Of a DNA stretch of 56,369 nt, positions 2,841 through 56,086 are shown piece by piece. The notes beneath the pieces are model-generated. The model saw only the letters and a program-made list of their open reading frames with translations. It did not search any database and had not been told where the DNA came from. The stretch's first letter is position 1. Each line of letters opens with the position of its first letter. The stretch is from Candidatus Uhrbacteria bacterium (lineage in GTDB: Bacteria > Patescibacteriota > Patescibacteriia > 2-12-FULL-60-25). Made by a program: the position numbers and the translations under genes. The stretch lies in NCBI GenBank assembly GCA_903829075.1, contig CAIKOH010000027.1, forward strand, positions 1 to 56,369, given 5' to 3'.

Positions 2841-3250
2841 GGGGATGAATCAGCATCGACGACATGCAACGTATCGTTCGGCAAGCCGAGCAGGCAACGA
2901 CGCCTCGTATAAACCGCGTTGCACATGACACCTGCCAACGTCATTTCCCGAGTGAAGAGCGCTGTGGCTTCGGCCTTCAGCGTTCCGAGCTTTGCTCCGT
3001 CCTTCGCCTAACCGCGAACCGTGACGGCCGATCCCCGCTTCTGCGCCTCAGAGCAACGGTGTGATCGCCATAATCTGTAGGCTTGAGCGCGCGCATGTTC
3101 TCTGCACACGTTGACCGGCCCGAGAACTTACGTTATGCCCACTCGTTCGTTCCATGATGCATAGCGGACACTCCTTGAACGAACCAAGCTTGTGAAGACG
3201 TGCGGTACGTCCATGCTCGGACGGGGGTGCGATACCCCCCATCTCCACCA
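2841..3250 (+). ncRNA. ssrA: tmRNA (ssrA)
   Basis: A one-piece tmRNA of about 410 nt. The 5' GGGGATG pairs with 3' CATCTCC, followed by discriminator A and an encoded CCA at 3248-3250. The T-arm is GGGGG-TGCGATA-CCCCC. The best tag reading frame starts at GCT 2961 and ends at TAA 3009-3011, giving the 16-residue tag AVASAFSVPSFAPSFA. This frame choice is an inference from the alanine resume codon, length and in-frame stop. The tag ends in SFA, not the common LAA, and the T-loop has G where U55 is expected. The gene is immediately downstream of smpB and upstream of an intrinsic terminator. Confidence 0.9.
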
Positions 3251-13447: not shown

Positions 13448-13627
13448 AAAAAAGATGGTCAATAAGCTGGGATAAAGACCGTTAGATCATACCGGCCTGT
13501 CAGAAATAAGAAAACGTCAAGCCCATGTCTCTCAACATCCAACGCTGCTAGCCTCTAACGCTACTAACAGCATTTTTCAAAACTGTTTTTTTGTTTACTG
13601 ACCGGGCCGTATTCTGTTAGCAGCCCT

Positions 13628-18884: not shown

Positions 18885-18970
18885 AAAATAAAAAGAAATA
18901 AAATCAAGGGAAGTATAACACAAAATAAAAAACATGTACTCAAAAAACGAAAAACATCGCACACCGTTGC

Positions 18971-18999
18971 TTGACAAAGAATGTGCCTGAATATATTTC
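18971..18999 (+). promoter_or_regulatory. Promoter of the 19052 gene
   Basis: TTGACA, 17-nt spacer, TATTTC. Confidence 0.55.
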
Positions 19000-19051
19000 C
19001 ACTGCTATCTTATAAATACATTTCTCTGAATCATCCACAAGGAGAAGATCG

Positions 19052-19378
19052 ATGGGAAACTCTTTCGCCTATCGCGGTAACCCGAGTGAATCCTTGGAAG
19101 AGGCGTATCATGCTCTGAAAAGGAGGTATGACGCCGTATGCGCGCTGTGCTGGAAACTCGCGAGCACCGTCCTCGTTCTCGTCGGGATCTGCGCCGTCTT
19201 CGTGGGCGGAGAGCTCGCGCTCATCAAGGACTTCGTGAACAACCACCGAGCCGCATCAGGCAACAGGATCTCTCGAACGGTTCAAACGCAGCCCATCGTC
19301 GTTCGTGCGTTGATCATCTCATGCGATGATCGCCGCATTCAATCCCCTCTCATCTGTTCATTCGAGAACAAATACTGA
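19052..19378 (+). CDS. Small single-pass membrane protein, unknown
   Basis: A 108-aa protein. Residues 1-35 are charged and helical, followed by one transmembrane segment (STVLVLVGICAVFVGG) and a basic tail. The start is supported by an AAGGAGA SD 7 nt upstream and a TTGACA promoter. A GC-rich terminator follows. The family is unknown; it belongs to the accessory SD class. Confidence 0.65.
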   Translation: MGNSFAYRGNPSESLEEAYHALKRRYDAVCALCWKLASTVLVLVGICAVFVGGELALIKDFVNNHRAASGNRISRTVQTQPIVVRALIISCDDRRIQSPLICSFENKY

Positions 19379-19387
19379 GTGGCTCAT

Positions 19388-19420
19388 CCCCGCACGCGGA
19401 CCTCGCCTGCGGGGTTTGCT
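19388..19420 (+). terminator. Probable terminator of the 19052 gene
   Basis: CCCCGCA / TGCGGGG stem followed by a weak TTTGCTCTT tail. Confidence 0.6.
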
Positions 19421-19436
19421 CTTAAGAAATAAAACG

Positions 19437-19479
19437 CCCCCAACCGCAATCGACGAGGGGTCGTCTTGCGATTGGGGGG
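19437..19479 (-). terminator. Structured terminator, related to 19867-19922
   Basis: On the minus strand CCCCCAATCGCAA...TTGCGGTTGGGGG with inner ACGA/TCGT pairing, then CGTTTTATTTC. It ends the 19492 gene. Stem layout and sequence resemble the second hairpin 430 bp away. Confidence 0.7.
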
Positions 19480-19491
19480 AGAGTCTCTCGT

Positions 19492-19779
19492 CTACCGCTC
19501 CATCACAGAACGGTGGAAGTGGCCGTTCTTCGTGTTGGCATCGTAGTAACCTTCCACGGGCTGCCCATCCACACGCCCCGTAATCAGATAGTCTCCCGGC
19601 ACGAGAGTCATGCCGTTGTAACGAACACCGGTGATCTTCACCCTCACCTCACCATGGTTCGTTTGGAAAGGAACACCCCGATCACTCAGGTCAGGCGCTT
19701 TGAGATAGGCCTTGGTTACGTCCTCGGCGCTTGGGTTGGAAGGGTCGGACACAATCGTGATCACATGTTCACTGGCCAT
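19492..19779 (-). CDS. Unknown accessory protein, 95 aa
   Basis: No family is recognised. The protein is soluble and mostly beta-like (EVRVKITGVRYNGMTLV, DYLITGRVDGQPVEGYYD) with a helical SAEDVTKAYLKA segment. It has a strong SD (AGGAGG, 5 nt upstream of ATG 19779) and its own structured terminator. No convincing promoter is seen between it and the upstream 45-aa gene; it could be transcribed by read-through. Confidence 0.7.
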   Translation of the reverse strand: MASEHVITIVSDPSNPSAEDVTKAYLKAPDLSDRGVPFQTNHGEVRVKITGVRYNGMTLVPGDYLITGRVDGQPVEGYYDANTKNGHFHRSVMER

Positions 19780-19866
19780 GAACTACCTCCTAGGATGTTC
19801 TTGCTGAGATCTATTGGACCATTTCTCGCTCAACTTGAACCGATGACTCTACATCAAATTCGTATA

Positions 19867-19922
19867 AAACGCAACACCCCCCGACCGCAGGCGACAAGGA
19901 CTGTCGTGTTGCGATCAGGGGG
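19867..19922 (-). terminator. Structured terminator, related to 19437-19479
   Basis: Minus strand CCCCCTGATCGCA...TGCGGTCGGGGGG with inner CGACA/TGTCG pairing, then GCGTTTTATAC. It ends the 45-aa gene. Confidence 0.65.
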
Positions 19923-19931
19923 AAGAGAAGT

Positions 19932-20069
19932 TTAGTAGCACCTCCGTCGAGAGCGCGAGGCTCCCAACGAAACGATGAAGCCAAGGAACACGAGAACCCC
20001 GAACGCCCCCGCCATCCAGACGAGAGACTCGGGAACAAGGATGCCACAGATCTCGATCGCTTCTTCCAT
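19932..20069 (-). CDS. 45-aa small membrane protein
   Basis: ATG 20069 has a GGAGGT SD 5 nt upstream and the frame ends at TAA 19932-19934. The peptide begins MEEAIEICGILVPESL, has one transmembrane helix (AGAFGVLVFLGFIVSLGA) and ends in a basic ASRSRRRCY tail. This negative-negative / helix / positive layout is typical of small membrane proteins. A possible promoter (TTGATC-18-GAGAAT, 20092-20121) lies upstream and a structured terminator follows. Family unknown. Confidence 0.65.
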   Translation of the reverse strand: MEEAIEICGILVPESLVWMAGAFGVLVFLGFIVSLGASRSRRRCY

Positions 20070-20091
20070 ACGTCACCTCCGAACCGAATCC

Positions 20092-20121
20092 ATTCTCTCA
20101 GACGCTCGATCACGCGATCAA
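20092..20121 (-). promoter_or_regulatory. Possible promoter of the 45-aa gene
   Basis: Minus-strand TTGATC, 18-nt spacer, GAGAAT; weaker than the other accessory promoters. Confidence 0.35.
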
Positions 20122-20199
20122 GCTGTCAGTCGAGGTGGGGAGCGCTGCATGAAGTTCATCATGTGTGCCTCCCCTAAGTCTCTGTTTTTTTGTAACGCG

Positions 20200-20511
20200 C
20201 TAGCGACGGTGGCCGTGGTGATGGTGCCGGGCCGTGGCGGGCGCGACGACGAAGCCGTCGACGATCCGCACTCCGGGCTCGACCGTCACGGCCAAGAGCC
20301 TACCGTGCACGCGTCCGATGACGCGGCGCGAAATAGGCCGGGGCGGCTGCACGACGGAGCGGTCGCGCAGCACGCCGACTGCATCCGGCGTCCCCCGCGA
20401 TCTCTCGGCGTGGGCTGCGCTCGCCACGAGGGTGGCGATCAGAAAAGCCAGGAAGAAAGTGGGAACAAGGCCGCCGACGAGACAGAAATAAATGTGACGG
20501 AGAACGCTCAT
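20200..20511 (-). CDS. Exported His-rich small protein, unknown
   Basis: A 103-aa protein with a signal peptide (FLAFLIATLVASAAHA, cleavage after AHA). The mature part is basic, with PQ-like strands (VVQPPRPISRRVIGRVHG) and a His-rich end (RHHHHGHRR) that could bind metal. Start ATG 20511 gives the best signal peptide, with GAGGGT just upstream; the in-frame ATG at 20556 is an alternative. The promoter at 20661-20689 is near consensus. Family unknown. Confidence 0.6.
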   Translation of the reverse strand: MSVLRHIYFCLVGGLVPTFFLAFLIATLVASAAHAERSRGTPDAVGVLRDRSVVQPPRPISRRVIGRVHGRLLAVTVEPGVRIVDGFVVAPATARHHHHGHRR

Positions 20512-20660
20512 GATACCCTCGAATACGTTGCGAGGCGTTTTGAATTCCGGAGCCATTCAGCCTTAGTTCGCTTCTTTGCGATGGGCTGCCGGGGCGTGAT
20601 TCCAACAGGTTCGTGTTGGGCTTAGAATCAGGCCGACCAGCTCATCAGCTAAGAAAATAC

Positions 20661-20689
20661 ACTATACCAGAAAACAGCCTTTCTGTCAA
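20661..20689 (-). promoter_or_regulatory. Strong promoter, minus strand
   Basis: TTGACA, 17-nt spacer, TATAGT. It drives the His-rich exported protein gene with a leader of about 140 nt. Confidence 0.75.
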
Positions 20690-20949
20690 GACATCACTTA
20701 CAGCGTAAAGATCTCGCGTGTCATACGGCGGTAACCGCCACTCCTTTATTTACAAGAAATACCATTTTAAAGGATCTTTAACCTAACGAAAGGACAGAAT
20801 ATTGTTCATACATATAAGGACAGATGCCATTTGTCTGGGTGATTTTGCGTATATTAGACAAATAAAAAGCATTTAATGAGGCTCTGCCCTATCAGCTTGT
20901 TTGTTTTTAGCCAAATTTATTCTATTTTACACACTTTGTACACTGCCTC
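20690..20949. other. AT-rich intergenic stretch
   Basis: 260 bp between two divergent strong promoters. It is distinctly AT-rich compared with its flanks. The only structure I see is GGCGG-TAA-CCGCC near 20725. No ORF with SD or leaderless promoter is apparent. Confidence 0.5.
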
Positions 20950-20978
20950 TTGACAAAACTTTCAAAAGGTGGTAGACT
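20950..20978 (+). promoter_or_regulatory. Strong promoter, plus strand
   Basis: TTGACA, 17-nt spacer, TAGACT. It drives the unit ending at terminator 21438-21464. Confidence 0.75.
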
Positions 20979-21037
20979 GATATGATTGAGTTTGAAAGCC
21001 ACTTCGGCAATCGCTCGGTCGGAAAGGTTTTAACGCC

Positions 21038-21256
21038 TTGAGTCAGAACAGCAGCGCCTTTCGGGCATCGGAGGTCTTCGGTCCGCACGCAGTCGGGGAC
21101 GTCCCCCCGCCGTGCAGGCTGGTGAAGACACACTTCACCGCGCCGAAGGCAGCAATGCTGCGGATCGGTCTGGTCTACGTGCGGGACACGAGACCGAAGG
21201 TGACGCCTCAACGGGTCGTCTCGACCTCGCTCAATCGTCGCGGGATGAAGAAGTAG
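21038..21256 (+). CDS. Unknown accessory protein, 72 aa (TTG start)
   Basis: The frame 21038-21256 has about three quarters G/C at third positions, a clear coding signal against the other frames. The start TTG is preceded by GGAAAGG about 11 nt upstream. The peptide is basic (MSQNSSAFRASEVFG ... VSTSLNRRGMKK), of unknown family. An ATG at 20982 opens a 19-codon frame (MIEFESHFGNRSVGKVLTP) whose TGA overlaps the TTG. Joined by a one-base shift they would make a longer N-terminus, so either coupling or a sequence error is possible. Promoter at 20950. Confidence 0.5.
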   Translation: MSQNSSAFRASEVFGPHAVGDVPPPCRLVKTHFTAPKAAMLRIGLVYVRDTRPKVTPQRVVSTSLNRRGMKK

Positions 21257-21282
21257 TTCTTCCCCGCGGCAAACCATCAACT

Positions 21283-21310
21283 CGAGGACGCGCATCGCTG
21301 CACGTCCTCG
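21283..21310 (+). repeat. 8-bp hairpin after the 21038 gene
   Basis: CGAGGACG / CGTCCTCG with a 12-nt loop and no T-tail. Confidence 0.5.
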
Positions 21311-21325
21311 CCCAACCTCGACACA

Positions 21326-21423
21326 CGATCATTCGCGTTTCAAGGCTGGTGCTTTCACAACTGAATATCATCATCTTAGAAAGAGAGAGCTAAGAAGATA
21401 CGACTCACCCGCGATCATTCGCG
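21326..21423. repeat. Direct repeat CGATCATTCGCG x2
   Basis: The 12-mer occurs at 21326-21337 and 21412-21423; the second copy is part of a CGCGA-TCAT-TCGCG hairpin. Confidence 0.5.
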
Positions 21424-21437
21424 AGGCCGTGTTTTCG

Positions 21438-21464
21438 ACGCTCTACTCATCCCAGAGCGTTTTT
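21438..21464 (+). terminator. Terminator of the 20950 transcription unit
   Basis: ACGCTCT / AGAGCGT stem followed by T5. Confidence 0.75.
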
Positions 21465-21474
21465 AAAACTCTCT

Positions 21475-21638
21475 GCGCAATATTTTGGAGGACCCACCAC
21501 CCATCTTCATTCTCACGAATGAATTGGAGGGGTCAACCTCGGGCAGTCTCGGTGAAAACTGAACCTGTTCCGAGTGCGATCCCACGGATATGAACCTGGA
21601 CTTCGGCCATGCGTTCTATCCCCTCCAAAATTTTGCGC
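21475..21638. ncRNA. Candidate structured RNA closed by a 17-bp stem
   Basis: GCGCAATATTTTGGAGG at 21475-21491 pairs with CCTCCAAAATTTTGCGC at 21622-21638 (16 of 17). Inside are a TTCATTC-TCAC-GAATGAA hairpin and CTCGG/CCGAG pairing. On the minus strand the same region holds a 25-codon ORF (MAEVQVHIRG...) with GGAGG inside the stem. No promoter is found on either strand. It could be an RNA, a leader, or a DNA-level inverted repeat. Confidence 0.35.
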
Positions 21639-21925
21639 AGACGAACGAACGTGGAGGAGGAGCCTTTCAGGAAACCAAACACGGCCACCTGAAGGAAGGA
21701 AGATCGATCTCAGACTCGGCGGCTCACCCTGCCACATCTGACAGTACATCTTCGCGTGGTCGATTCACCCTTCGGGGTGACATCAACCATTCACCTCTAC
21801 ATTCGTTCGCCTGTGCAGGCTCCTTAAAAAGGGCGCATTGCGCCCCTCAAGTACTCGAACCATCGAGCATTTGAGGGACGCAACGCGACAACTTCGTCGC
21901 TACGCGATCTACCTTGGGTGAACCC
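21639..21925. other. Non-coding stretch before the 21926 gene
   Basis: No coding frame is supported. It contains GGGCGC-ATT-GCGCCC near 21835 and CTCAA-GTA-CTCGA-ACCA-TCGAG-CAT-TTGAG just upstream of the gene, so the leader is probably highly folded. No consensus promoter is found. Confidence 0.45.
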
Positions 21926-22840
21926 ATGACGCAGGACACCAACGCGACCGATACCACCGTGACCATGATCATCACCGAGAAGCCCGCCGCGCCCGTGAAG
22001 TCCCTGTTCGAGGGCATCTGGAAGGCGTTGCGATTCATGGCCGCCATGGAGCAGGCGCAGGCCGAGGTCAGCCGGGGCAAGTTGCCCGAGCAGCTGCCGA
22101 CCGAGCTCACCGTCGCGAACGCGGAGGCCCTGATCCCCGGCCAGGTCCCCGGCACCTTCGTCCGGGACGTACAGCGGATCAAGCCGGGGTACAACCCGGC
22201 CGCGGACGCCCCGAACGGGACGACCGCGCAGGTCTGGTCGCACAGCCTGGTGGACGTCCGGGCGCCCGTGGTCCGGAAGTACCTGCCGCTCCTGGTCCCC
22301 CTCCACGACACCTTCAAGACGGACCGGGCTCCGCTCGGGACGACCTGGAGGCGGCAGCTGGAGGTGCTGACCGAGGTCCGCGGGGAGATCGTGGCCGACC
22401 GGAAGCGGCGCCTGGAGACGTGCGAGAAGCACCTCCGGGCCATCGCCAAGGAGGCCAAGTCCCTCGACGTGGAGACCCAGCGCGGGGTCGACGCCTCCCT
22501 CAAGGAGCACCAGGGTCAGATCGAGGCCATCCGCGCGATGGTCACGACGGTCGACCCCGACCCCATCGCCCTGATGGCGGTCCACCAGATCCTGATCGAC
22601 CTGGTGAAGGACCTCGCCCGCTGGGAGACCGGGATCACGGGCAAGGCCAAGGCCGCCCGCCGCGCCAAGGCGGAGGCCGAGAGCCAGGCGCAGGCGAGAG
22701 CGCAGATCGAGGGGCGGAGGGCGCAGGAGAAGGCGACCGCCTCCCTCGCCGAGCAGCAGATCGCCGCGCTCCAGGCCGCCCTGCGGACCCCCAAGACCTG
22801 GGGCACGCAGGCGTCGGCCGAGGAGCGCAAGGCCGCCTAG
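21926..22840 (+). CDS. GC-rich coiled-coil protein, unknown, 304 aa
   Basis: No family is recognised. The gene is extremely GC-rich, with nearly every third position G or C, unlike the core genes. The N-terminal ~30 residues are Thr-rich. The middle has WSHSLVDVRAPVVRKYLP and a long helix with EKHLRAIAKEAKSLD. The C-terminal third is an Ala/Glu/Lys/Gln coiled coil (ARRAKAEAESQAQARAQ). No signal peptide or membrane span is visible. ATG 21926 is chosen; an in-frame TTG at 21914 is possible and no strong SD precedes either. It looks horizontally acquired. Confidence 0.7.
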   Translation: MTQDTNATDTTVTMIITEKPAAPVKSLFEGIWKALRFMAAMEQAQAEVSRGKLPEQLPTELTVANAEALIPGQVPGTFVRDVQRIKPGYNPAADAPNGTTAQVWSHSLVDVRAPVVRKYLPLLVPLHDTFKTDRAPLGTTWRRQLEVLTEVRGEIVADRKRRLETCEKHLRAIAKEAKSLDVETQRGVDASLKEHQGQIEAIRAMVTTVDPDPIALMAVHQILIDLVKDLARWETGITGKAKAARRAKAEAESQAQARAQIEGRRAQEKATASLAEQQIAALQAALRTPKTWGTQASAEERKAA

Positions 22841-23020
22841 TCGGACCCGTTCCGACCAGCTCAATCATGAGCTGTGAGTCAACCACCGAATGTTGACAAC
22901 TGATGCTCGGGGACATCGGCTTGATGTTCCTACGAGGCGAAGCGCACTCACGCTCGCCTCCGAATCTTGCCATCTGATTTCGATCGGATCTCAAGACTCG
23001 TCAGTACGGATCAGCATCGC
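22841..23020. other. Non-coding stretch with a long hairpin
   Basis: After the 21926 gene, GAGGCG-A-AGCG / CGCT-CGCCTC (about 22934-22961) forms a 10-bp stem without a T-tail. No ORF is supported here. Confidence 0.45.
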
Positions 23021-23049
23021 TTGTCATGCGCATGTTCAACAGATACGTT
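23021..23049 (+). promoter_or_regulatory. Possible promoter of the cloverleaf-like RNA
   Basis: TTGTCA, 17-nt spacer, TACGTT. Confidence 0.45.
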
Positions 23050-23115
23050 TAAAAGAGATGAAAGCGAAACACATTCGCTCTGCCACATTTTCATTCAAGT
23101 CATTAAATGAAGGTG

Positions 23116-23221
23116 TGGCAGCAAACCCCGTTCAACGGAACACGACGAACGGCGTCCGTGGAGGACGTAAGAGCGGTTTATCCCGCTTGGAAGATTGGTT
23201 CAAATCCAGTCAACGCTGCCA
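23116..23221 (+). ncRNA. Candidate cloverleaf-like (tRNA-like) RNA
   Basis: A 106-nt element closed by TGGCAGC / GCTGCCA (7 bp). It encloses CCG-TTCAA-CGG, CGTCC-GTGGA-GGACG, GCGG-TTTATC-CCGC and a T-arm-like GATTGG-TTCAAAT-CCAGTC. The T-loop matches tRNA consensus. It is not a standard tRNA: three nucleotides separate the T-arm from the closing stem, there is no CCA after the closing stem, and no U33-type anticodon loop. A promoter lies upstream and a strong terminator follows, so a stable transcript is likely. Confidence 0.4.
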
Positions 23222-23231
23222 ACAACTCCCA

Positions 23232-23277
23232 ACCCGCGATCGAGCCTGTACCAGGTTCTCGCGGGTTTTTCTTTTTT
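23232..23277 (+). terminator. Strong intrinsic terminator
   Basis: ACCCGCGA / TCGCGGGT outer stem with inner GAGCCTG/CAGGTTC, then a long T-run. Confidence 0.85.
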
Positions 23278-23290
23278 CATAAAGTTGCTC

Positions 23291-23319
23291 TTGACAAAAT
23301 TTTAAAAATCGCTTAAGGT
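23291..23319 (+). promoter_or_regulatory. Promoter of the 23448 gene
   Basis: TTGACA, 17-nt spacer, TAAGGT. Confidence 0.6.
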
Positions 23320-23348
23320 TTCCTGTCGTTCTTTTCTCTGATCACAGC

Positions 23349-23402
23349 TCATCCGGAACCACCTCCAGATATACCCTTATGTCTTGAACTGGTTCCGGAT
23401 GA
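23349..23402 (+). promoter_or_regulatory. Leader hairpin of the 23448 gene
   Basis: TCATCCGGAACCA (23349-23361) pairs perfectly with TGGTTCCGGATGA (23390-23402), a 13-bp stem in the 5' leader between promoter and SD. It may be a stabilising or regulatory RNA element or an operator. Confidence 0.55.
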
Positions 23403-23447
23403 TGAAACCTATTGTTTCCATCTTGGAGCGCTAGAGAGGTGCTGATC

Positions 23448-24629
23448 ATGAGCAACGAATTCATTTCACCCACCACGGGAGAGCCTGCTCCCAAGCTCGT
23501 CTTCAAGTTCGCCGCCGGCTTCGGCAACGACGGAGACCCGTTCAGCAAGGAGCAGTACACAGGCGGGAGCAAGCCGCTCATGGACCGACGCCTCTTCTGC
23601 GTGGCAGGGGTCGCGCTCGACATGAGTATGGCCCCCATCGTGGGCAAGGGCGACAAGGTACTCGCGCCGTACACCGAGATCGTCCTGTCTCTCGGCGAAA
23701 GCACGGTGCGCAAGGATGACGAGGACGCGCCCTTCATCCTGGTCGGAAACGAGAAGGTCAAGTGGGGAGATCTGATCAAGAGGCATGCTCCTGGAAGCAT
23801 CGAAGCGCTCTGGCGCGGTCGTTGGAAGCAGGAGGGAGAGGAGGAGAAGGTGCTCGTGAGGCAGCACCCCCTCCGTCGCGACGCGAGCCAAGACGATCTG
23901 AACAGGGCTCAATACAAGCTCGACGTGTACTACGTCGACGCCGGAAATCGCCCGCCGACGAAGCATCGACAGGGCGGCGCTCGGACGGAAGGCGACAAAC
24001 GCCAACTGTTCACCGTCCATCTGCATGATCTGGTCCAAGCGATCAACTCGATCCGCGCGGCAAATACGGACGTGGACATGGTCCAGGGAGTCGCCTGGCA
24101 GAGCCTCGGGCATGCCGCCTTCGGGATGAACTTCCAGCCCAGCACCGCACCCGGAGTTCTGAGGCCGAAGGCGATCGGCGTGGTCTGCTGCCGAACGGAT
24201 GGCAGCCGACGCGAGAACCGTGACAGCAGGACGGTCCGGGTCTTCCGCAGCGACAACGCTGCGGGCATCCTGGTCATGAGCGTCGATCTGGCCCGACAGA
24301 TCGTCTCGCAGATGATCCTCGAGGGCATCAATCTCGACGGGATCAGGGGTGTGTCGGCGGAACAGCGGCAAGCCTTGAACGGGCTCGGCCTCGATGATCA
24401 GCTGCCGAGCGGGTGCAAGGGACTGACCAATGCCCTGGCGCTTCTGCCTCCCCGTCTCCACGCTCGTTTGCAACAGGAGCCGACGGGATTCGACGAGAGG
24501 CTCGCGAGGGAATGGACGCGGGAGCGGGAACAGCGGGAAAAGGCTGATCGCACCGCGGCTGAAGCGGCGGCCCAGACCACGACGCCCCCCGCAACGGACA
24601 ACGGTGGGACCGGAGGCGCGGGCACCTAG
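23448..24629 (+). CDS. GC-rich unknown protein, 393 aa
   Basis: No family is recognised. The start MSNEFISP is supported by GAGGTG 6 nt upstream. The body looks globular (FKFAAGFGNDGDPFSKEQY, FCVAGVALDMSMAPIVG, ALDMSM, HAAFGMNFQPSTAPG). The last ~60 residues are low-complexity: a charged helix (REREQREKADRTAAEAAA) and a Thr/Gly tail. There is no signal peptide. Codon third positions are strongly G/C. It has its own promoter, folded leader and perfect terminator: a self-contained accessory unit. Confidence 0.75.
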   Translation: MSNEFISPTTGEPAPKLVFKFAAGFGNDGDPFSKEQYTGGSKPLMDRRLFCVAGVALDMSMAPIVGKGDKVLAPYTEIVLSLGESTVRKDDEDAPFILVGNEKVKWGDLIKRHAPGSIEALWRGRWKQEGEEEKVLVRQHPLRRDASQDDLNRAQYKLDVYYVDAGNRPPTKHRQGGARTEGDKRQLFTVHLHDLVQAINSIRAANTDVDMVQGVAWQSLGHAAFGMNFQPSTAPGVLRPKAIGVVCCRTDGSRRENRDSRTVRVFRSDNAAGILVMSVDLARQIVSQMILEGINLDGIRGVSAEQRQALNGLGLDDQLPSGCKGLTNALALLPPRLHARLQQEPTGFDERLAREWTREREQREKADRTAAEAAAQTTTPPATDNGGTGGAGT

Positions 24630-24652
24630 CCTCGCGCCAGAATCACAACTCA

Positions 24653-24690
24653 AGCTCTCGAGCAGACACCTGTCGCTCGAGAGCTTTTTC
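24653..24690 (+). terminator. Terminator of the 23448 gene
   Basis: Perfect 11-bp AGCTCTCGAGC / GCTCGAGAGCT stem, then T5. Confidence 0.9.
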
Positions 24691-24717
24691 GTTTTTCAAA
24701 AATGATAGACGCGACAG

Positions 24718-24746
24718 TTGACCAATACCTCGCTTAGCGATATGCT
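24718..24746 (+). promoter_or_regulatory. Promoter of the 6S-like RNA
   Basis: TTGACC, 17-nt spacer, TATGCT; the predicted start at about 24753 is two bases before the closing stem. Confidence 0.65.
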
Positions 24747-24752
24747 CAAAAA

Positions 24753-24910
24753 TAGGTGCTCCTTTGAAAGCTGCGTGGCCGGCACTTCGTCCTTACAGCG
24801 ACCGTCCGATCTCGTATCGGATACTCTCTCCTTTCGCCATCAGGACGAATCCTCGCGGGAACTCCCGCAAGATCTCGCCGCGCTCCGCAGCTTTAAACGG
24901 AGCACCCAAC
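24753..24910 (+). ncRNA. 6S-like regulatory RNA (candidate)
   Basis: The ends 24755-24775 and 24886-24906 pair over 21 positions with only two mismatches. The interior has an apical stem TTCGTCC/GGACGAA carrying TCCGAT-CTCGT-ATCGGA, and a small hairpin GCGGG-AACT-CCCGC on the 3' side. A long closing stem, a wide central opening with a small 3'-side hairpin and an apical stem, at about 155 nt, is the layout of 6S RNA, which mimics an open promoter and binds RNA polymerase. Its own promoter starts exactly at the stem. The SRP signature GGAAGGAAGCAG and RNase P motifs are absent. The call rests on fold, not sequence identity. Confidence 0.45.
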
Positions 24911-24956
24911 CCGCTGCGCCTCGCCTCCTTTTTTTGCGAGCGGATCATCGATTCCG

Positions 24957-37765: not shown

Positions 37766-38713
37766 CTAGTAAATATGTTTCAAATAGGGTCGTGCGTAGA
37801 CGGAAGGGATGGCGGTTTCATCGAGCGCGTAGCGCGTCAGGTTCCATTCTATCACGAATCGCGGAGAAATGGAGGAGCCGATCATCTGCCAGGCCTGCGC
37901 CAAACCAAGACCCACGCGCACCGCTTCACGCGGCGAGCTCTTGCTCTGCAAACGACACATGTCCATCCCTGCACGCAACTCCTCGCGCCAACTCGCCGCG
38001 GGATCTTCGGTACTCTCCGCGCGCTGTTGCATCTGCTCGAGGCTCTGGCAACGCTGTCCTAGATTTTGCGTAAAAAAATCCTGCCAACGTTCGATACGCC
38101 GCTCCCGTTCACGACGCACATCTGCCTCGCGCCACAAACTCAGGGCGCGACCAGGACATCCCTGCGACGCCTGCGCGCACGCAGATGCTTCCGTTTCACC
38201 TGCGCCCTGTTGTTGCAACCAGGTTTGAATTTCCAACGGCCGCAATGGAAAAAAAGACACCGGCACCAAACGTGAACGCAAGGTATCCGGTAAGCGCTCG
38301 GCACGTTCTGCGATAAAAATATACGTTGTAGCATCAGTCGCCTCTTCCACTGCTTTCAATAATGCATTGCACGCCTCTTCATTTAAACGATCCGCCTCAA
38401 CCACTAACGCGACCTTGCGACCACCACGCGCCGCGCTCAAACGCATGCGCTGCACTAGCTCACGAATCTGTTCCACACCAATATCGCGCGCCTCCGTCTG
38501 TCGCTCGACAACCATCGCGTCTGGATGTGCGCTCAACGGCGCATCATTCTCCATGTTCAACAGGAGTCGCGCAAATCGTTCTGCGACACGATGCTTCCCC
38601 ACACCTTCTGGACCAACAAAAAGATATCCAGGCGCTGGACGCTCTGCATTCATCAACAGTACGCGCTTGATCTGATCGTGGCCGACAACGTCATCAAAAG
38701 AAGAAGCTTCCAT
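37766..38713 (-). CDS. holB: DNA polymerase III subunit delta' (clamp-loader)
   Basis: A 315-aa AAA+ clamp-loader subunit. It starts FDDVVGHDQIKRVL, with a degenerate Walker A GPEGVGKHR (His where Ser/Thr is expected), the helical RKVALVVEADRLNEEACNALLKAVEEA segment and LRSRLVPV sensor-type motif. Delta' does not need to hydrolyse ATP, so the loss of the P-loop Thr is compatible with function. No zinc-finger cysteines of DnaX are present. ATG 38713 is chosen: the extended -10 TGCTATGCT ends 8 nt upstream. Confidence 0.88.
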   Translation of the reverse strand: MEASSFDDVVGHDQIKRVLLMNAERPAPGYLFVGPEGVGKHRVAERFARLLLNMENDAPLSAHPDAMVVERQTEARDIGVEQIRELVQRMRLSAARGGRKVALVVEADRLNEEACNALLKAVEEATDATTYIFIAERAERLPDTLRSRLVPVSFFPLRPLEIQTWLQQQGAGETEASACAQASQGCPGRALSLWREADVRRERERRIERWQDFFTQNLGQRCQSLEQMQQRAESTEDPAASWREELRAGMDMCRLQSKSSPREAVRVGLGLAQAWQMIGSSISPRFVIEWNLTRYALDETAIPSVYARPYLKHIY

Positions 38714-38752: not shown

Positions 38753-38796
38753 AAAAGAGCCCGGTGACATGATCTTGAGGATCACGCCACCGAGCT
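38753..38796 (-). terminator. Terminator of the GC-rich island
   Basis: Minus strand GAGC-T-CGGTG...TGATC-CTCAA-GATCA...CACCG-G-GCTC, then T4. Confidence 0.85.
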
Positions 38797-38815
38797 CAGA
38801 GTGAAAGGAACACTG

Positions 38816-40384
38816 TCAGTAGCAGGCGTCGCCGGCCGTGAGGCGCGCCGCGCTCGTGCAGTACCCGCCGTCGCAGCCGTTGAAGCGCGAGACGGGGTGT
38901 GCGGTCGCGCCCTGGTTGAGATCGATGCAGCGCGGGTCGCCCATCGCCGGCACGACCGTTACCGGAGTCTGGATCGTGCCCGTGACCGAAGCCATGTAGA
39001 CCTGGCCGGTGAGCTCCTCGCTCGACGACACACCATCGTACCCGGCCAGGAAGACCCGACCGCTGGTCGCCGAGGTTCCGGGGGACGGGAACCAGGCGTT
39101 GATATCGCCCGTTCCTTGGATCGACGTGCGCACCCGGAAGGCCAGGCATACGAACGTCCCAACGGGCACGGACGGGAAGGTCGCCACCGTGAGACCGCCG
39201 CCCGGATGGCGACGGCTTCCGTCGAAGTCGATGGTGATCCCGGGCGTGATGCCCCGGATGAAGTCCGGGCACGCCGACGACCGACAGACGGCAGCTGCGA
39301 CGCAGGCGACCCACGTCTGCATCCCCGGCTCGTCCGCGACCGCCGACTCCGTGATCGGCCGTCCACCCATGACCGCCGCCGTGTCGACCAGGTTGATGAA
39401 ACCCTCGCTGGCGATCATCGGCGAGCAGATCCCACTGGAGCAGGTCAATCCACTGTTGCAGGTGCCCCCGCAGCAGATCTGGCTCACCGCACCGCACGGG
39501 GTGAACGGGGTACAGATGCCGCTTGACGAGCAGCTCAGCCCGGCTCCGCAGCCGCCGCCGATACCGCCGCAGCAGCCTTCGCTCGCTGCGCCGCAGGGCA
39601 CCTGGCAGGTGTCGCTGCTGTCGCAGACGAGGCCGGAGCTGCAGGCGCTCCCCGTGGAGCAGCACACCTGGCTCGCGGCACCGCAGGGCGGAGGCGTCGG
39701 CTGGCAGATGCCCAGCGCGTCGCAGCTCGTCCCGGTACCACAGGCCCCACCGATACCACCACAGCAGGTCTCACCTGCACCACCACACGGCGGCGTCGGC
39801 TGGCAGGTGCTCGAGATGCAGCTCAACCCCGAGCCGCAGATCGTCCCGCTGGTGCAGCAGAGCTGTCCCAACAGGCCACACGGCGGGGGCGGGGGCGTCT
39901 GGCACATGCCGAGACTGTTGCAGACGAGGCCCGTGTTGCAGGGGCTCCCCGTGGAGCAGCACACCTGGCTCGCGGCACCGCAGGGCGAGCCGCTGTCGGT
40001 CACGGGCATCCCGCTGTCGGCGGGGGTTCCCGTATCGGGCGAGCCGCTGTCCGCCACGCCGCTGTCGACGACAGGGGCGGGCTGACAGGTTCCGCTCTGG
40101 CAGGTCAACGAAGCGTTGCAGGCCGCGGTCCCGCAGCAAGCCTGGTGCAGCGCGCCGCAGGGCGCACCGCTGTCGACGACCGTGCCGGTGTCGGTCCCGG
40201 TGTCGTACGTGCCGGAGTCCACGGGCAACGTACCCGTGTCCTGACCGGCGTCCGCAGGAGGCGTGGCGTCGACGGGCATCATGCCCGTATCCGCCGGTCC
40301 GCTGTCGATGGCGAACTTGGGGTCCTCCCAGCTCGCACAGGCAGGAACCATCAAGGCACCCATCAAGGCAATGATCTTCTTCAT
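38816..40384 (-). CDS. Cys-rich seven-repeat lipoprotein, GC-rich
   Basis: A 522-aa protein with signal KKIIALMGALMVPAC (lipobox-like). It has an Asp/Gly/Thr-rich spacer (DTGTDTGTVVDSG), then seven tandem repeats of about 30 residues on the pattern C-G-x3-Q-x-C-C-x4-C-x2-G-L-x-C-x5-C-Q, joined by Pro-rich linkers. The C-terminal ~190 residues form a separate domain with several cysteines (CVAAAVCRSSAC). This composition resembles surface lipoproteins of Myxococcota more than the local core genes. SD GAGGAGAG lies before ATG 40384. Second gene of a two-gene operon. Confidence 0.8.
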   Translation of the reverse strand: MKKIIALMGALMVPACASWEDPKFAIDSGPADTGMMPVDATPPADAGQDTGTLPVDSGTYDTGTDTGTVVDSGAPCGALHQACCGTAACNASLTCQSGTCQPAPVVDSGVADSGSPDTGTPADSGMPVTDSGSPCGAASQVCCSTGSPCNTGLVCNSLGMCQTPPPPPCGLLGQLCCTSGTICGSGLSCISSTCQPTPPCGGAGETCCGGIGGACGTGTSCDALGICQPTPPPCGAASQVCCSTGSACSSGLVCDSSDTCQVPCGAASEGCCGGIGGGCGAGLSCSSSGICTPFTPCGAVSQICCGGTCNSGLTCSSGICSPMIASEGFINLVDTAAVMGGRPITESAVADEPGMQTWVACVAAAVCRSSACPDFIRGITPGITIDFDGSRRHPGGGLTVATFPSVPVGTFVCLAFRVRTSIQGTGDINAWFPSPGTSATSGRVFLAGYDGVSSSEELTGQVYMASVTGTIQTPVTVVPAMGDPRCIDLNQGATAHPVSRFNGCDGGYCTSAARLTAGDACY

Positions 40385-40493
40385 GGCACTCTCCTCTTCG
40401 TCGGTGAAAGACCTATTGAAGCGCGGTATTGACCCCATGTCTCACGCATCTTCGTAAGAATTGACCTCGTGAGAGATCACTTCTTGTGAAGAC

Positions 40494-40525
40494 GGAATGC
40501 GCAGGTTACCCTACGCATTCCGTTA
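40494..40525 (-). promoter_or_regulatory. Intercistronic hairpin of the GC-rich island
   Basis: ACGGAATGCG / CGCATTCCGT, 10 perfect pairs, no T-run. It probably stabilises or attenuates between the two genes. Confidence 0.6.
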
Positions 40526-40540
40526 GGAAACTGGAAAGAG

Positions 40541-41752
40541 CTACAGAAGCGGAATCACCCCCTCGATCCGGAGCAATCCGCCGCCCACTACGCTCGCCCA
40601 GATCCCTCCGCTCGAGTCGGTCTGGAGCTGGGTCGGGGCCGTCGGGATGGTCACGGACGAGTAGCCGGCCGCGAATCCCGCGATGACGGCGAGCTGGGGA
40701 AACGGCTGGAAGCGCACGCCGGCGAACAGATCGCCTTCGCGCACGATCAACCCGTGGACGGAAACCGTGCCGTTGTGTCCATCTTCGGAGGCGAGGTTGA
40801 ACCCGACTCCGAACTGGAGGGCGAAGAGATGGTCGTGGTTCAACCACGCCAAGGCACCAACTTGGGCGCCACCGCCCAAGAGGTGCCCGGGGTAGCTGTC
40901 GAGCATCTGGTAGCACGGGCCATATCCGTTCACATATGCACCCCAGGTCGACTGGCGGCTCGCGAACAGAATTCCTACGCTCGGGCAGAAGCTCTCGAAT
41001 CCCGGGGTCGAGATCGAGGCCTGCGCGCCGATGGTAAGGTGCACGGAGTTCGACTGGGCAACGGCCGGAGCGGAGGCGCTCGGAGCGGCTCCCCCGGGAT
41101 GCAGCGGGCAGTTCTCCGGAGTCCGCTCGCACTGCTCGACCACGGTCAGACGAGGCACGATCTGCTCGTGCACCTCGTGTGCGAGGGGCGAGTTGGCGAT
41201 GCGCCCGTCGATCCGCCCATTGAGGTCGATGCAGTTGTTGCTGAACCGCACGGTATTCCCGCTCACGGTGTGACTGAGGAGCGCCAGGTCCTCCGGCGGA
41301 CACGGCGTCTCATCGAAGGTGACCGAGGGGGTCGACGTGGTCGGCACCCCGTTGGCGCGATCATTCGCCTCTTGTAGGCGGATCACCTCCACCCGACGAA
41401 CTGCGTGACGGAGCGCGGCCAGATTCTCACGCACGCGCCGCAACTGCTCCTCCGTCGAGACGTGGAGCGTACGGTCGGTCTCGATCCCCCCGTTGAAGAG
41501 GTTCACGATGGCCGGTCCGGCGGCGGCCAGATGCCGCGGGTCGCTGAAGGCCGTTTGAAGCGTTGTTTGTGCGGCCTGGACGGCCTGATGCTCGGCGGCG
41601 GCGGCGGCGTTCGCGTCGCTGCGCGGCGCACCCGCCACCACCGGACGCGGTGCGGGTACGGCACCGTGGTGGTGCGAAGTGGTCTGTGCACCCACCATGG
41701 GCGCGTAGACCATTCCGACGAAACAGAGGCTGAGAAACAATCCCTTGTTCAT
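40541..41752 (-). CDS. Secreted GC-rich protein, probable beta-barrel C-terminus
   Basis: A 403-aa protein with a signal peptide (LFLSLCFVGMVYAPMVGAQ). An Ala-rich helical region follows (AAAEHQAVQAAQTTLQTAF, RRVRENLAALRHAVRRVEV), then a Cys-containing middle. The last ~180 residues carry alternating hydrophobic strands and glycines (LTIGAQASISTPG, LFALQFGVGFNLAS, LFAGVRFQPFPQLAVIAGFAAGY) ending in LLRIEGVIPLL, like an outer-membrane beta-barrel. An outer-membrane barrel would be unusual for Patescibacteria, so either the gene is foreign or the barrel reading is wrong. SD GAGGG, TTGACA promoter, ~190-nt folded leader. Confidence 0.75.
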   Translation of the reverse strand: MNKGLFLSLCFVGMVYAPMVGAQTTSHHHGAVPAPRPVVAGAPRSDANAAAAAEHQAVQAAQTTLQTAFSDPRHLAAAGPAIVNLFNGGIETDRTLHVSTEEQLRRVRENLAALRHAVRRVEVIRLQEANDRANGVPTTSTPSVTFDETPCPPEDLALLSHTVSGNTVRFSNNCIDLNGRIDGRIANSPLAHEVHEQIVPRLTVVEQCERTPENCPLHPGGAAPSASAPAVAQSNSVHLTIGAQASISTPGFESFCPSVGILFASRQSTWGAYVNGYGPCYQMLDSYPGHLLGGGAQVGALAWLNHDHLFALQFGVGFNLASEDGHNGTVSVHGLIVREGDLFAGVRFQPFPQLAVIAGFAAGYSSVTIPTAPTQLQTDSSGGIWASVVGGGLLRIEGVIPLL

Positions 41753-41813
41753 GTGGTCCCTCTTCTCTCAATCTTCAGCGCCGAAATCCTTCGGCTGGTT
41801 GTTGGAATGCAAA

Positions 41814-41909
41814 GAGCCTCTCTTGAAGGCTCGGCTCTGAAGCCGTCCCGTCCAGCTCTGAGAAGAGGAGGAGATTTCCCAAAACGGGCGGAACGAATTC
41901 AAAGCCGAG
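41814..41909 (-). promoter_or_regulatory. Folded 5' leader with overlapping stems
   Basis: The stem 41830-41841 / 41898-41909 (12 bp with one G-U) shares bases with a hairpin at 41814-41832 (GAGCCT/AGGCTC), so the two compete. A CCGAA/TTCGG hairpin lies nearer the start codon (41781-41794). Confidence 0.5.
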
Positions 41910-41951
41910 GAAAAAACGAGAAACGCTCGTATTTCTTCAAAAGAACAAGTA

Positions 41952-41980
41952 AACATACCATAATATTCTTTTTTTGTCAA
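41952..41980 (-). promoter_or_regulatory. Promoter of the GC-rich island
   Basis: Minus strand TTGACA, 17-nt spacer, TATGTT. Confidence 0.75.
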
Positions 41981-42069: not shown

Positions 42070-42690
42070 CTACGCGATTCTTCGCGGCCAACGGACTAAT
42101 AACCAGAGCAACGCAACACAGAATCCTGCCACCAGTCCCAGGCCACCATTCATGAGGATATTTGGTCGCGCATACCAACGTGTGTTTAATGGAGCATCGA
42201 TCACCTGGACGCGTACGCTGTAGCCAAAAAAGTTTGGAGCCTCAAGCGCGAGCTCACGACCAACGGCGTCCGCAAGTGCGTTCGCCTGATCCGGCAAGCG
42301 GTGATACGCAGTCAGAGTCAAGATGCCGGTTCCTGGTGCCACGCTCACCTCGATCGTTTTCTGCCATTCGCTGCGCTGCGAGTATTCATCCCCGGAAAAA
42401 ACACTGGGATCAAATCCTTTTGCTTGTGCCAAAGCGTTATGAAAAAAATTTGAGGTGTAAATGAGTTCGGTTAAATTTCCTGCAATGCGCTCGGTGGATT
42501 TCATGGCCGTGTACGGATCTAATCCCGTCGCATCAGGCAGGGTGATTAGCAGACGCTCGGTTGAACCATACTGCAACGGAATAAAGGCTAACGAAAACAG
42601 GATCGCCAAACACATGCCTGCAAGCGCTGTTCCCACCAGAATGCGCCACTCACCAAAGAATCGAGATACCTGTTGCAAAGCAGAAGACAT
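42070..42690 (-). CDS. Wzz-like polysaccharide co-polymerase domain protein
   Basis: A 206-aa protein with two transmembrane helices near the termini (VGTALAGMCLAILFSLAFIP and GLGLVAGFCVALLWLLV) and an extracytoplasmic mixed domain between them, the layout of chain-length determinant (Wzz/PCP) proteins. The pre-TM2 segment VIDAPLNTRWYARPN matches the family's conserved proline-rich stretch. It lacks a kinase domain. Last gene of the operon. Confidence 0.8.
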   Translation of the reverse strand: MSSALQQVSRFFGEWRILVGTALAGMCLAILFSLAFIPLQYGSTERLLITLPDATGLDPYTAMKSTERIAGNLTELIYTSNFFHNALAQAKGFDPSVFSGDEYSQRSEWQKTIEVSVAPGTGILTLTAYHRLPDQANALADAVGRELALEAPNFFGYSVRVQVIDAPLNTRWYARPNILMNGGLGLVAGFCVALLWLLVRWPRRIA

Positions 42691-42710: not shown

Positions 42711-43877
42711 TTATTTAAGAACTTGACTCGTGAGTTGATTTCCGAGTTGAAGCGGGATGGTCAACACTTTTCCTGCGCGCACAACCTGCAGAGAGACCAT
42801 AGCCCCAGGCTGAAACTCCAACAGATGCGAACCCAGATCTACCCTTCCATCTAACACATCGTTATCTAAATTTTGGAGTACATCCCCTTCTTGCAGCAGG
42901 TGCGTCGCGGGTGATGTTTTCTCGATCGACAGAACCGAGGTTCGCTGATTCGCGTGCAACCAGAATCCCTGACGAGGCAAAACTGTTGCACCTGTTTCTC
43001 GTATGACATTCGACAGATCAAATCCATTTACACCCAACGAAGCATGATGGATTGAGCCCGTGTTCAGGATCTGCTGCAACCCCGCACTCATATTTCCAGC
43101 GGGCAACACAGATGCATACGAACCATCAAATGATTCAACTAACCCGATCAAAGCTCCGTCACGATTCCAGACCGGAGCCCCAAACTCATTCTGACTCACA
43201 CGCTCAGGCAACAGGAATCGCCGATCCGCTTCATCGCTTGAAAAACGTGTATTGAAAGATTCAGGACGCGTATCTACTACCGTGGTTGGAAGAAATCGCT
43301 GGGCAACCGGTTCGATCCAAGCGGACATCCCAGCTATCGCCATATCAGATGGCAACAAGCTCGCGCTTGGCAGATGCTGCGCAGCGATTTTCAAAAAGAT
43401 CGCGTGCGTAAAATGATCACGAATGATTTTTTGAATAGGATAGGTGCGTCCGGCCCAGGCGATCTCAAAATTTTCGGCACCGTTTTGTGAAAACACCGGA
43501 TCAACACTGATCAACCACCCATCTGAGGTCACGGACACCGCATTCCCCACGATCCGATCATTCAACACGGCTGGATCTTGCGTTGCAGTATCTGCCGCCT
43601 CATGTTCAACCACCCTCGCAACAGGCGAAAGCTGCTGCGTAAAATCTGTACTCAGAATCGGGGTCGGCTGTGCGTCCGTCGACGGAATGGATATGACTGG
43701 AGGGAACATCGCCGTGCTGGTCGCGCGAAGCGTTTCCGTATGCAGCTGCTCGACATTTGCTTCAAGCGTCCGCAAGCGCAATTCCCCAAGTGCAAAAAAA
43801 ACGCCAATCGAAAGCACGACGCAGATCAATGCGATCGACACGACAATGGTGAAAGAAAGAGGGTGAAGACGTTTCAT
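42711..43877 (-). CDS. HtrA-like protein with PDZ domain and lost catalytic triad
   Basis: A 388-aa protein with one N-terminal membrane anchor (FTIVVSIALICVVLSIGVFFA), a trypsin-like domain and a C-terminal PDZ (SPATHLLQEGDVLQNLDNDVL). The protease landmarks are altered. The strand before the catalytic His reads VTSDGWLISVDPV with no His. The Asp motif is replaced by HAIFLKI. The GNSGGP serine loop reads NEFGAPVWN. It is therefore probably an inactive sensor or scaffold. It starts 4 nt after the upstream gene ends and has GGAG upstream. Confidence 0.8.
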   Translation of the reverse strand: MKRLHPLSFTIVVSIALICVVLSIGVFFALGELRLRTLEANVEQLHTETLRATSTAMFPPVISIPSTDAQPTPILSTDFTQQLSPVARVVEHEAADTATQDPAVLNDRIVGNAVSVTSDGWLISVDPVFSQNGAENFEIAWAGRTYPIQKIIRDHFTHAIFLKIAAQHLPSASLLPSDMAIAGMSAWIEPVAQRFLPTTVVDTRPESFNTRFSSDEADRRFLLPERVSQNEFGAPVWNRDGALIGLVESFDGSYASVLPAGNMSAGLQQILNTGSIHHASLGVNGFDLSNVIRETGATVLPRQGFWLHANQRTSVLSIEKTSPATHLLQEGDVLQNLDNDVLDGRVDLGSHLLEFQPGAMVSLQVVRAGKVLTIPLQLGNQLTSQVLK

Positions 43878-43881
43878 ACAA

Positions 43882-44706
43882 TCAGCTCCAACGCGCAAAG
43901 CTTAACAGACCGACGAACAACACGCACGCCACGCAGGCCTCCCCCCAAGCCAAGCGCACCGCAGGAACAGGTTGATAACCATACCGTCGAATCCGTAAAG
44001 GCACAGCGAGAAAGAGAGCGCACAGCGCTCCCTGTACAACGGTAGCCAATGGCAGGGTCACATTAAACAGCGCCACATGTACGCCCACTAGCAGACCAAA
44101 CAATACCCAGCGCCAACGACTCTGCTTATCTGCAGAGGGATGTGAGGTAAAGGCATACCATAACGCACAAAAACCCATCCAGGTAAAAAACACCACCCAT
44201 GGAGCAACGTTCAAAAAAACAAACAACGCATTCAAACTTGCCGCCAAAAAAAATCCACCAATAGGCACGAGCGCAAGATTCACGTGCGACAGGGCATTCA
44301 CCGGATAACGGGAAGGATTATACGCAGAAAGAAATAACAGCTCTAGGACCAAATAGGAAAGTGCGGCGAGAATACAGGCCACCAACCATAACTCCCACGT
44401 GGTTTCGGTCAGCACAATGCCTGCGGCAACCGCAACAAAACTCAGGAATGGCGGCAGGGCGCGTTCAAGCAGCTGCCAATGCGGAATACGTCTCCATCCA
44501 ATTAAGAGCAGCGCCCCACCGAACCAGAGCGACGCCGCAATCAATGGCCAGGGATAACTCAACGGCGCACGCGACACCCACAAACACATCGCCAACACAA
44601 AAAAAACCGTACACAATGGAAGCGCACGCAGTACCACGATCCCAATAGCTCGCGCAGAAAGGGCGCGTGCCGCAGATGAACGATGTAGGAGAGCGGACGT
44701 AGCCAT
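43882..44706 (-). CDS. Multi-pass membrane protein, unknown, 274 aa
   Basis: About eight hydrophobic helices (for example VVLRALPLCTVFFVLAMCLWV, WLVACILAALSYLVLELLFL) with a conserved-looking NPSRYPVNALSHVN loop. No family is recognised. Tight spacing on both sides (5 nt after the AI-2E permease gene, 4 nt before the HtrA-like gene) shows it belongs to the same operon. Confidence 0.75.
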   Translation of the reverse strand: MATSALLHRSSAARALSARAIGIVVLRALPLCTVFFVLAMCLWVSRAPLSYPWPLIAASLWFGGALLLIGWRRIPHWQLLERALPPFLSFVAVAAGIVLTETTWELWLVACILAALSYLVLELLFLSAYNPSRYPVNALSHVNLALVPIGGFFLAASLNALFVFLNVAPWVVFFTWMGFCALWYAFTSHPSADKQSRWRWVLFGLLVGVHVALFNVTLPLATVVQGALCALFLAVPLRIRRYGYQPVPAVRLAWGEACVACVLFVGLLSFARWS

Positions 44707-55246: not shown

Positions 55247-56086
55247 ATGTCTGCCACCGTTCAAGCGAGTAGTCCTCCAGCTCCATCAAAACTCCGACAG
55301 ATGTTGAACAAGGTTCCAGAAGTAACGCTGTATTTTTGGATTATCAAAATTTTATGCACGACAGTCGGTGAAACGTTTGCGGACTATTTGAGCACGAACT
55401 TGAATCTAGGTCTGACCAACACGACGTACATCATGGGCGTGCTGCTGTTGATCGTTCTCTTTTTTCAATTCAAGGCGAAAAAATACATCCCAGGAATTTA
55501 CTGGGTGACGGTCGTCCTGATCAGTGTTGTCGGCACCTTGATTACAGACAACCTGACTGACGGCTTTGGAATCAGTCTTAAAATCACCACAGCTGTGTTT
55601 TCTGTCATTTTAGCAATCGTCTTCGCCGCTTGGTATGCGAGTGAAAAAACTCTGTCCGTTCACAGTATCGTCACTACGAAACGCGAAGCATTTTATTGGC
55701 TAACGATTTTGTTTACGTTCGCGCTCGGTACTGCTGCCGGTGATCTTATCGCGGAACAGTTTAGTGTTGGTTATTTGAACTCTGTCCTTTTATTTACAGG
55801 CTGCATCGCGCTCGTGACTGGCGTGTATTACCTCATTAAGACAAGATTAGCTGCTAAGCATCAGATGCAATCAACCTACGCGATTCTTGCCTTCTGGTTA
55901 GCCTACATCCTCACCCGTCCTCTCGGTGCATCCATCGGTGATTATTTGTCTCAAGCTCGAAGTGATGGCGGATTAGAACTCGGAACAACGGTGACAAGTG
56001 CTATTTTTCTTGGAGCTATTCTGTGCTTAGTTATCCACCTGAGCGTCACGAAGAAAGACCAGATAAAAACGGCGCAGTCGGCTTGA
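55247..56086 (+). CDS. COG4705-family membrane protein, copy 2
   Basis: A 279-aa protein, close paralog of the 12593-13447 product: the same GETFADYLSTNLN, GTAAGDLIAEQF and PLGASIGDYLSQ helices and long identical runs, with differences mainly at the N-terminus (MSATVQASSPPAPSK) and C-terminus. The leader also matches copy 1 (ATTGACCA...TTTT before ATG), so the duplication includes the promoter region. Function unknown. Confidence 0.85.
   Translation: MSATVQASSPPAPSKLRQMLNKVPEVTLYFWIIKILCTTVGETFADYLSTNLNLGLTNTTYIMGVLLLIVLFFQFKAKKYIPGIYWVTVVLISVVGTLITDNLTDGFGISLKITTAVFSVILAIVFAAWYASEKTLSVHSIVTTKREAFYWLTILFTFALGTAAGDLIAEQFSVGYLNSVLLFTGCIALVTGVYYLIKTRLAAKHQMQSTYAILAFWLAYILTRPLGASIGDYLSQARSDGGLELGTTVTSAIFLGAILCLVIHLSVTKKDQIKTAQSA

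Follow-up and report, generated by a model that had tools for sequence, protein, structure and literature searches.

The GC-rich two-gene island of Candidatus Uhrbacteria contig CAIKOH010000027.1 is probably best read as one lineage's allele of a conserved, hypervariable surface-protein locus. A family of tiny Patescibacteria that probably depend on hosts shares this locus, in the order wzz, gene 1, gene 2 (optionally followed by gene 3/4), holB. The patescibacterial assignment agrees with a genome size of roughly 1 Mb and with the relatives found. Here gene 1 (gene B) encodes a secreted protein with a barrel-like C-terminal part, and gene 2 (gene A) encodes a Cys-rich lipoprotein. In the literature we found no description of this locus, nor any report of myxobacteria as hosts of such bacteria.

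The island and its conserved position

In the window (the whole 56,369-nt stretch of DNA analyzed), GC content rises from about 0.52 to 0.62–0.70 over 38.8–41.8 kb, with sharp compositional edges, and GC3 is 0.82 in gene B and 0.86 in gene A versus 0.50–0.57 in the native neighbors. The unit and its flanks comprise the following features:

42070–42690 (−): wzz-like gene, conserved upstream flank (label from the preliminary description; without a Pfam match)
38757–41980 (−): whole unit, in the order promoter, leader, gene B, gap hairpin, gene A, terminator
41952–41980 (−): promoter TTGACA-N17-TATGTT with extended −10 (TG), by motif match
41753–41951 (−): leader, 199 nt, strongly structured (MFE z −6.3 versus mononucleotide shuffles)
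40541–41752 (−): gene B, gene 1 of the locus, secreted protein of 403 aa; signal peptide ending VGAQ, barrel-like C-terminal part
40544–41077 (−): barrel-like C-terminal region of B, approximately residues 226–403 (hmmsearch 3.4e-6; hhalign 73.6%; dyad z 1.7)
40492–40523 (−): hairpin in the gap between B and A (13/14 positions complementary; gap fold z −5.4)
38816–40384 (−): gene A, gene 2 of the locus, Cys-rich lipoprotein of 522 aa with 51 Cys; ATG with AGGAG Shine-Dalgarno
39420–40160 (−): seven CC repeats of A, CGxxxQxCC...CxxGLxCxxxxCQ, of myxobacterial type (repeat alignment and genome search)
38819–39418 (−): C-terminal head of A, 200 aa, with no relative found in searches
38757–38797 (−): intrinsic terminator ending the unit, hairpin of 18 pairs
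37766–38713 (−): holB, conserved downstream flank (DNA_pol3_delta2, E 9e-25)

The longest ORF for gene A extends to 40438, giving 540 aa. The preliminary description had reported a GC-rich two-gene unit between holB and a wzz-like gene, with a single TTGACA promoter, a long leader and its own terminator, encoding a Cys-repeat lipoprotein and a partner with a barrel-like end, and each of these elements is borne out. Promoter-like sites are enriched in the window (three observed versus 0.8 expected from shuffling), and the strict pattern TTGACA-N14-TGnTAnnnT occurs three times, at the A/B unit and in an orphan region at 18.9–24.9 kb. Leaders from six sources matched no known RNA when scanned against Rfam. 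An integron or mobile-element reading of the unit was rejected, as its end repeats are merely short two-copy matches.

Neighborhoods of holB were fetched from related genomes, and the count was limited to genomes with wzz and holB on the same contig. The interval is filled in all 18 such family genomes (own included), spanning 2.9–5.8 kb, and an empty site was found in none of them. Interval GC is 0.49–0.67, versus 0.39–0.66 for the two flanking genes. Gene calling gives a constant layout of promoter, structured leader, secreted protein, Cys-rich lipoprotein and optional extra genes; the strict promoter pattern precedes gene 1 in 17 of the 18 loci, and both leaders and intergenic gaps are structured. 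Where wzz and holB lie apart, in G002, a 38-Cys lipoprotein and a gene-1 relative are encoded just downstream of wzz behind the same promoter type. Nine holB regions from the same class but outside the family keep holB and a BNR neighbor, with no unit and no wzz match.

A search with the full gene-1 profile matched 30 of 41 family genomes, nearly all at the wzz-holB locus. In several of the 11 genomes with no gene-1 match the contigs end near the locus, and in one of them (L090) the unit is present with a gene 1 beyond the reach of the profile; some of the 11 may truly be without gene 1.

Several other parts of the window deserve mention. A second GC-rich region of orphan genes (18900–24950) includes ORFs at 21914–22840 (GC3 0.97) and 23412–24629 (GC3 0.79) as well as smaller ones, TTGACA promoters at 20950 (+), 20689 (−) and near 23290 (+), hairpin leaders, and terminators; it has no family matches, and no relatives within the fetched loci of related genomes. 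Two close copies of a DUF347 membrane protein lie in low-GC stretches at 12593–13462 and 55247–56086 (the Pfam assignment covers the first copy). A conserved gene upstream of wzz (42711–43898) resembles, by eye, a degenerate HtrA/PDZ protein, which could serve as a chaperone for the secreted pair. Rfam identifies a tmRNA at 2841–3250 (81 bits) that ARAGORN missed.

Relatives and architecture of the two proteins

Gene-1 and gene-3 proteins belong to a single superfamily (98% in hhalign between clusters), and most members conserve the Cys positions. The gene-1 architecture comprises a signal peptide, a Cys-containing head, a coiled coil (collagen-like in L108), and a C-terminal barrel-like region; the coil gives a weak PDB match to trimeric fiber proteins.

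The relation of B to this family surfaced only with an iterated family profile. A single-sequence search of 57 relatives and 379 Myxococcota returned chance matches only, nothing rose above chance among plasmids, viral contigs and PDB sequences, and neither B nor A has a meaningful Pfam, NCBIfam or PDB match. A profile built without B matches B at E 3.4e-6 in hmmsearch, the next true non-member scoring 0.43, and hhalign aligns B to the family profile at 73.6% over 110 columns of the barrel region. Reversed or shuffled B does not score against this profile in hmmsearch, and in hhalign such decoys, like the window's other GC-rich proteins, reach at most 1.5%. These profile comparisons place B in the gene-1 family as a very divergent member, joined mainly via the barrel-like region. 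Its position adds support: B lies directly after wzz, behind a TTGACA-N14-TG promoter, and carries a signal peptide. Single-sequence AlphaFold models, with pLDDT of 37.6 for the B C-terminus and 34.7 for the A head, are too low in confidence to interpret.

Gene-2 proteins share a lipobox, a variable Cys-rich stalk and a beta-rich head. Gene A has the lipobox-like motif VPAC and a Cys-rich stalk of seven double-cysteine units, and is second in the locus. The stalk modules at this one position differ among lineages, being CC repeats in A, STIG1 in L090, and three MopE modules in L098. Fifteen of 23 gene-2 heads form one family, with the head of A outside it (E 2.1). When the repeat unit of A, derived from an alignment of its own repeats, was used as a query, 31 genome loci were found; 29 carry the name of Myxococcota/Deltaproteobacteria or of a genus within them, and the other two come from one Micrarchaeota and one "Proteobacteria" MAG. 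The Micrarchaeota contig (L032), the sole archaeal match, has an open frame of 2108 residues that contains CC-type Cys repeats. L011 and L016 match A in lipobox, spacer and CC layout and have different heads.

Full-length A gave no matches in PDB, NCBIfam or the genome scan, and a search of 379 Myxococcota found no relative of its 200-aa head. The gene-1 family profile likewise finds no orthologue in those 379 genomes, where partial matches of 1e-4 to 1e-6 correspond to coils and generic barrels. The module style of A is thus myxobacterial, but A and B as wholes are not traced to Myxococcota in our searches. The myxobacterial look noted in the preliminary description holds for the CC repeats of A.

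The barrel-like assignment draws on several features of the gene-1 family. The barrel region of its profile gives a weak match to OprF in PDB (E 0.005) and picks up barrel-type outer-membrane proteins in Myxococcota; a single weak match to OMP_b-brl was also found. Sixteen of 33 gene-1/3 proteins end in an aromatic residue, versus 8.2% of background ORFs (p ~1e-9), an enrichment that persists after collapse to 28 clusters (p ~8e-7). Mean alternation (dyad) z is 1.8 in the C-terminal part of gene-1 proteins and −0.2 in the N-terminal part; gene-2 heads also alternate (z 1.4), so alternation indicates beta structure rather than a barrel. No YadA-type anchor or head domain was among the families from Pfam scans of B and 29 family members.

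A search for Omp85/BamA was negative in all 41 family genomes and positive in seven of 14 control genomes. Based on this absence, it is possible, although not the reading we favor, that the gene-1 protein is a soluble beta-rich surface domain with no membrane barrel, and that the two proteins build a coat or matrix that has nothing to do with a host. The OprF and OMP_b-brl matches are consistent with this in being just weak ones, as is the non-aromatic final residue of many gene-1/3 members, including B, which ends in Leu. However, the frequency of aromatic C-termini and the matches of the profile's barrel region to barrel-type Myxococcota proteins argue for a barrel.

Base composition and probable exchange of alleles

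The GC3 of the locus is decoupled from that of the genome. It is approximately 0.8 in every genome, while native GC3 ranges from 0.28 to 0.83, and regression of locus on native GC3 gives a slope of 0.05 ± 0.09 (r 0.15; 17 genomes). In a 380-kb sample of the AT-rich genome G020 there are just two strict promoter sites, and they drive the two highest-GC3 ORFs of 339, one of which encodes a lipoprotein. In the sample from the window's own genome the strict promoter is less specific than in G020. The link between promoter and high GC3 is accordingly strong for G020 and suggestive for the window's own genome. Two further G020 regions were observed: L183:11427–14900 is another high-GC3 lipoprotein gene pair behind the same promoter type, possibly a second locus of the same kind, and L181:838–6212 is a high-GC3 prophage-like module with a strict promoter before its highest-GC3 ORF.

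Gene-1 distances partly track the species tree (Mantel r 0.69), so exchange can be only part of the history of gene 1. Gene 1 is nonetheless far more divergent, with identities of 0.12–0.70 versus 0.34–0.90 for native genes, and its alleles are reshuffled inside one genus: L115–L117 has the highest native identity of three pairs and the lowest gene-1 identity (0.78 and 0.28), whereas L113–L115 has 0.69 and 0.40, and L117–L096 has 0.73 and 0.39. We read this pattern as replacement of alleles in addition to descent. Among the donors listed in a survey of gene exchange in Patescibacteria from groundwater, there are no Myxococcota (PMC12455944).

Purely vertical inheritance of envelope proteins would require another source for the high GC3, such as a bias confined to the locus (a recombination hotspot with GC-biased gene conversion, or codon or mRNA selection) in place of import. 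The constancy of GC3 across genomes in which gene 1 partly tracks the species tree, the structured RNA throughout, and the equally high GC3 of the two other promoter-linked G020 genes are consistent with such a bias. We nonetheless regard it as an unlikely explanation; lineage-specific swaps of whole myxobacterial-type stalk modules and the reshuffling of alleles inside one genus both point to exchange, and the prophage-like region of G020 is also high in GC3.

A single event that brought a myxobacterial two-gene island into this genome, which the GC3 contrast with the neighbors and the near confinement of CC repeats to Myxococcota had suggested, is very unlikely and is refuted in that form. 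The preliminary description had called the unit inserted and odd for a Patescibacterium, yet the same unit occupies the same position, in the same order and with the same promoter, across the 18 family genomes with both flanks on one contig. B belongs with the family's own gene-1 proteins and has homologues only within this patescibacterial family, and neither B nor the head of A, for which no homologue was found at all, has a counterpart in 379 Myxococcota; a wholesale myxobacterial origin of the island is not shown. An assembly chimera or contamination, a worry raised by the sharp compositional edges, can practically be dismissed, because misassembly cannot explain a flank pair and a unit of the same kind that recur in 17 other genomes, some with very few contigs and with a common promoter type, and the contamination estimate for this genome is 0.18%.

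Resemblance to known systems and a possible role

Individual parts of the locus resemble known surface systems. Myxobacterial surface lipoproteins with CC repeats, STIG1 (PF04885) or MopE (PF11617) modules are similar to A and other gene-2 proteins in lipobox, Asp/Thr/Gly spacer and Cys-rich modules, but their C-terminal heads are unrelated, and gene 2 is the second gene of a conserved patescibacterial operon. Gene-1 proteins share with OprF/OmpA-type barrels the barrel-like C-terminal region, the frequent aromatic C-terminus and the weak OprF profile match, but add an N-terminal head and a coiled coil, in genomes without Omp85. With trimeric autotransporter adhesins (type Vc, UspA1/YadA) they share a signal peptide, head, coiled-coil stalk and C-terminal barrel-like anchor. 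The type Vc anchor is a short four-strand segment per chain, whereas the gene-1 C-terminal region is approximately 165 aa long, has no sequence relationship to it, and occurs without Omp85. Opa/pilin and capsule loci are hypervariable antigen or adhesin loci with cassette exchange, and the wzz-holB locus is like them in its fixed position, conserved ends, diverse cargo and reshuffled alleles. It differs in that variation was observed only across species and genera, neither silent copies nor repeats turned up, and its GC3 stays near 0.8.

Based on these features, we propose that the strong promoter drives a structured mRNA covering the unit. B would be exported by Sec and cleaved by signal peptidase I; in family-type gene-1 proteins, the Cys-containing head would be followed by a coiled-coil stalk, probably trimeric, and the barrel-like end. 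A would be held as a lipoprotein in the cell's own membrane, its Cys-rich stalk presenting the beta-rich head at the tip. The pair may act at the surface where the cell meets other cells, most likely those of a diderm host, and alleles may diversify rapidly under the pressure of that contact. New alleles and stalk modules (CC, STIG1 and MopE, many of them typical of Myxococcota) would be acquired when cassettes or parts of them are exchanged with GC-rich donors, and this would hold GC3 near 0.8 whatever the composition of the recipient. Epibiotic Saccharibacteria in culture depend on multiple adhesins and take up DNA by natural competence (PMC10633639); this makes the contact and exchange parts of the model plausible, but it concerns another class.

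A more elaborate version, which we consider improbable, is that gene-1 barrels are a receptor supplied by the parasite: after secretion they would insert into a host's outer membrane, the host being a diderm and perhaps a myxobacterium, their stalk would dock on the epibiont's lipoprotein, and codon usage and stalk modules would follow the gene pool of the GC-rich host. The barrel would then be made by a cell that has neither an outer membrane nor Omp85.

The wzz-holB interval poses two testable puzzles, namely a GC3 decoupled from the genome at a conserved locus and barrel-like proteins in genomes without Omp85. With its one promoter type, its fixed order of secreted stalk protein and lipoprotein, and its changing stalk modules, the locus is a concrete candidate for the means by which Patescibacteria recognize and hold their hosts, and the modules may point to those hosts.
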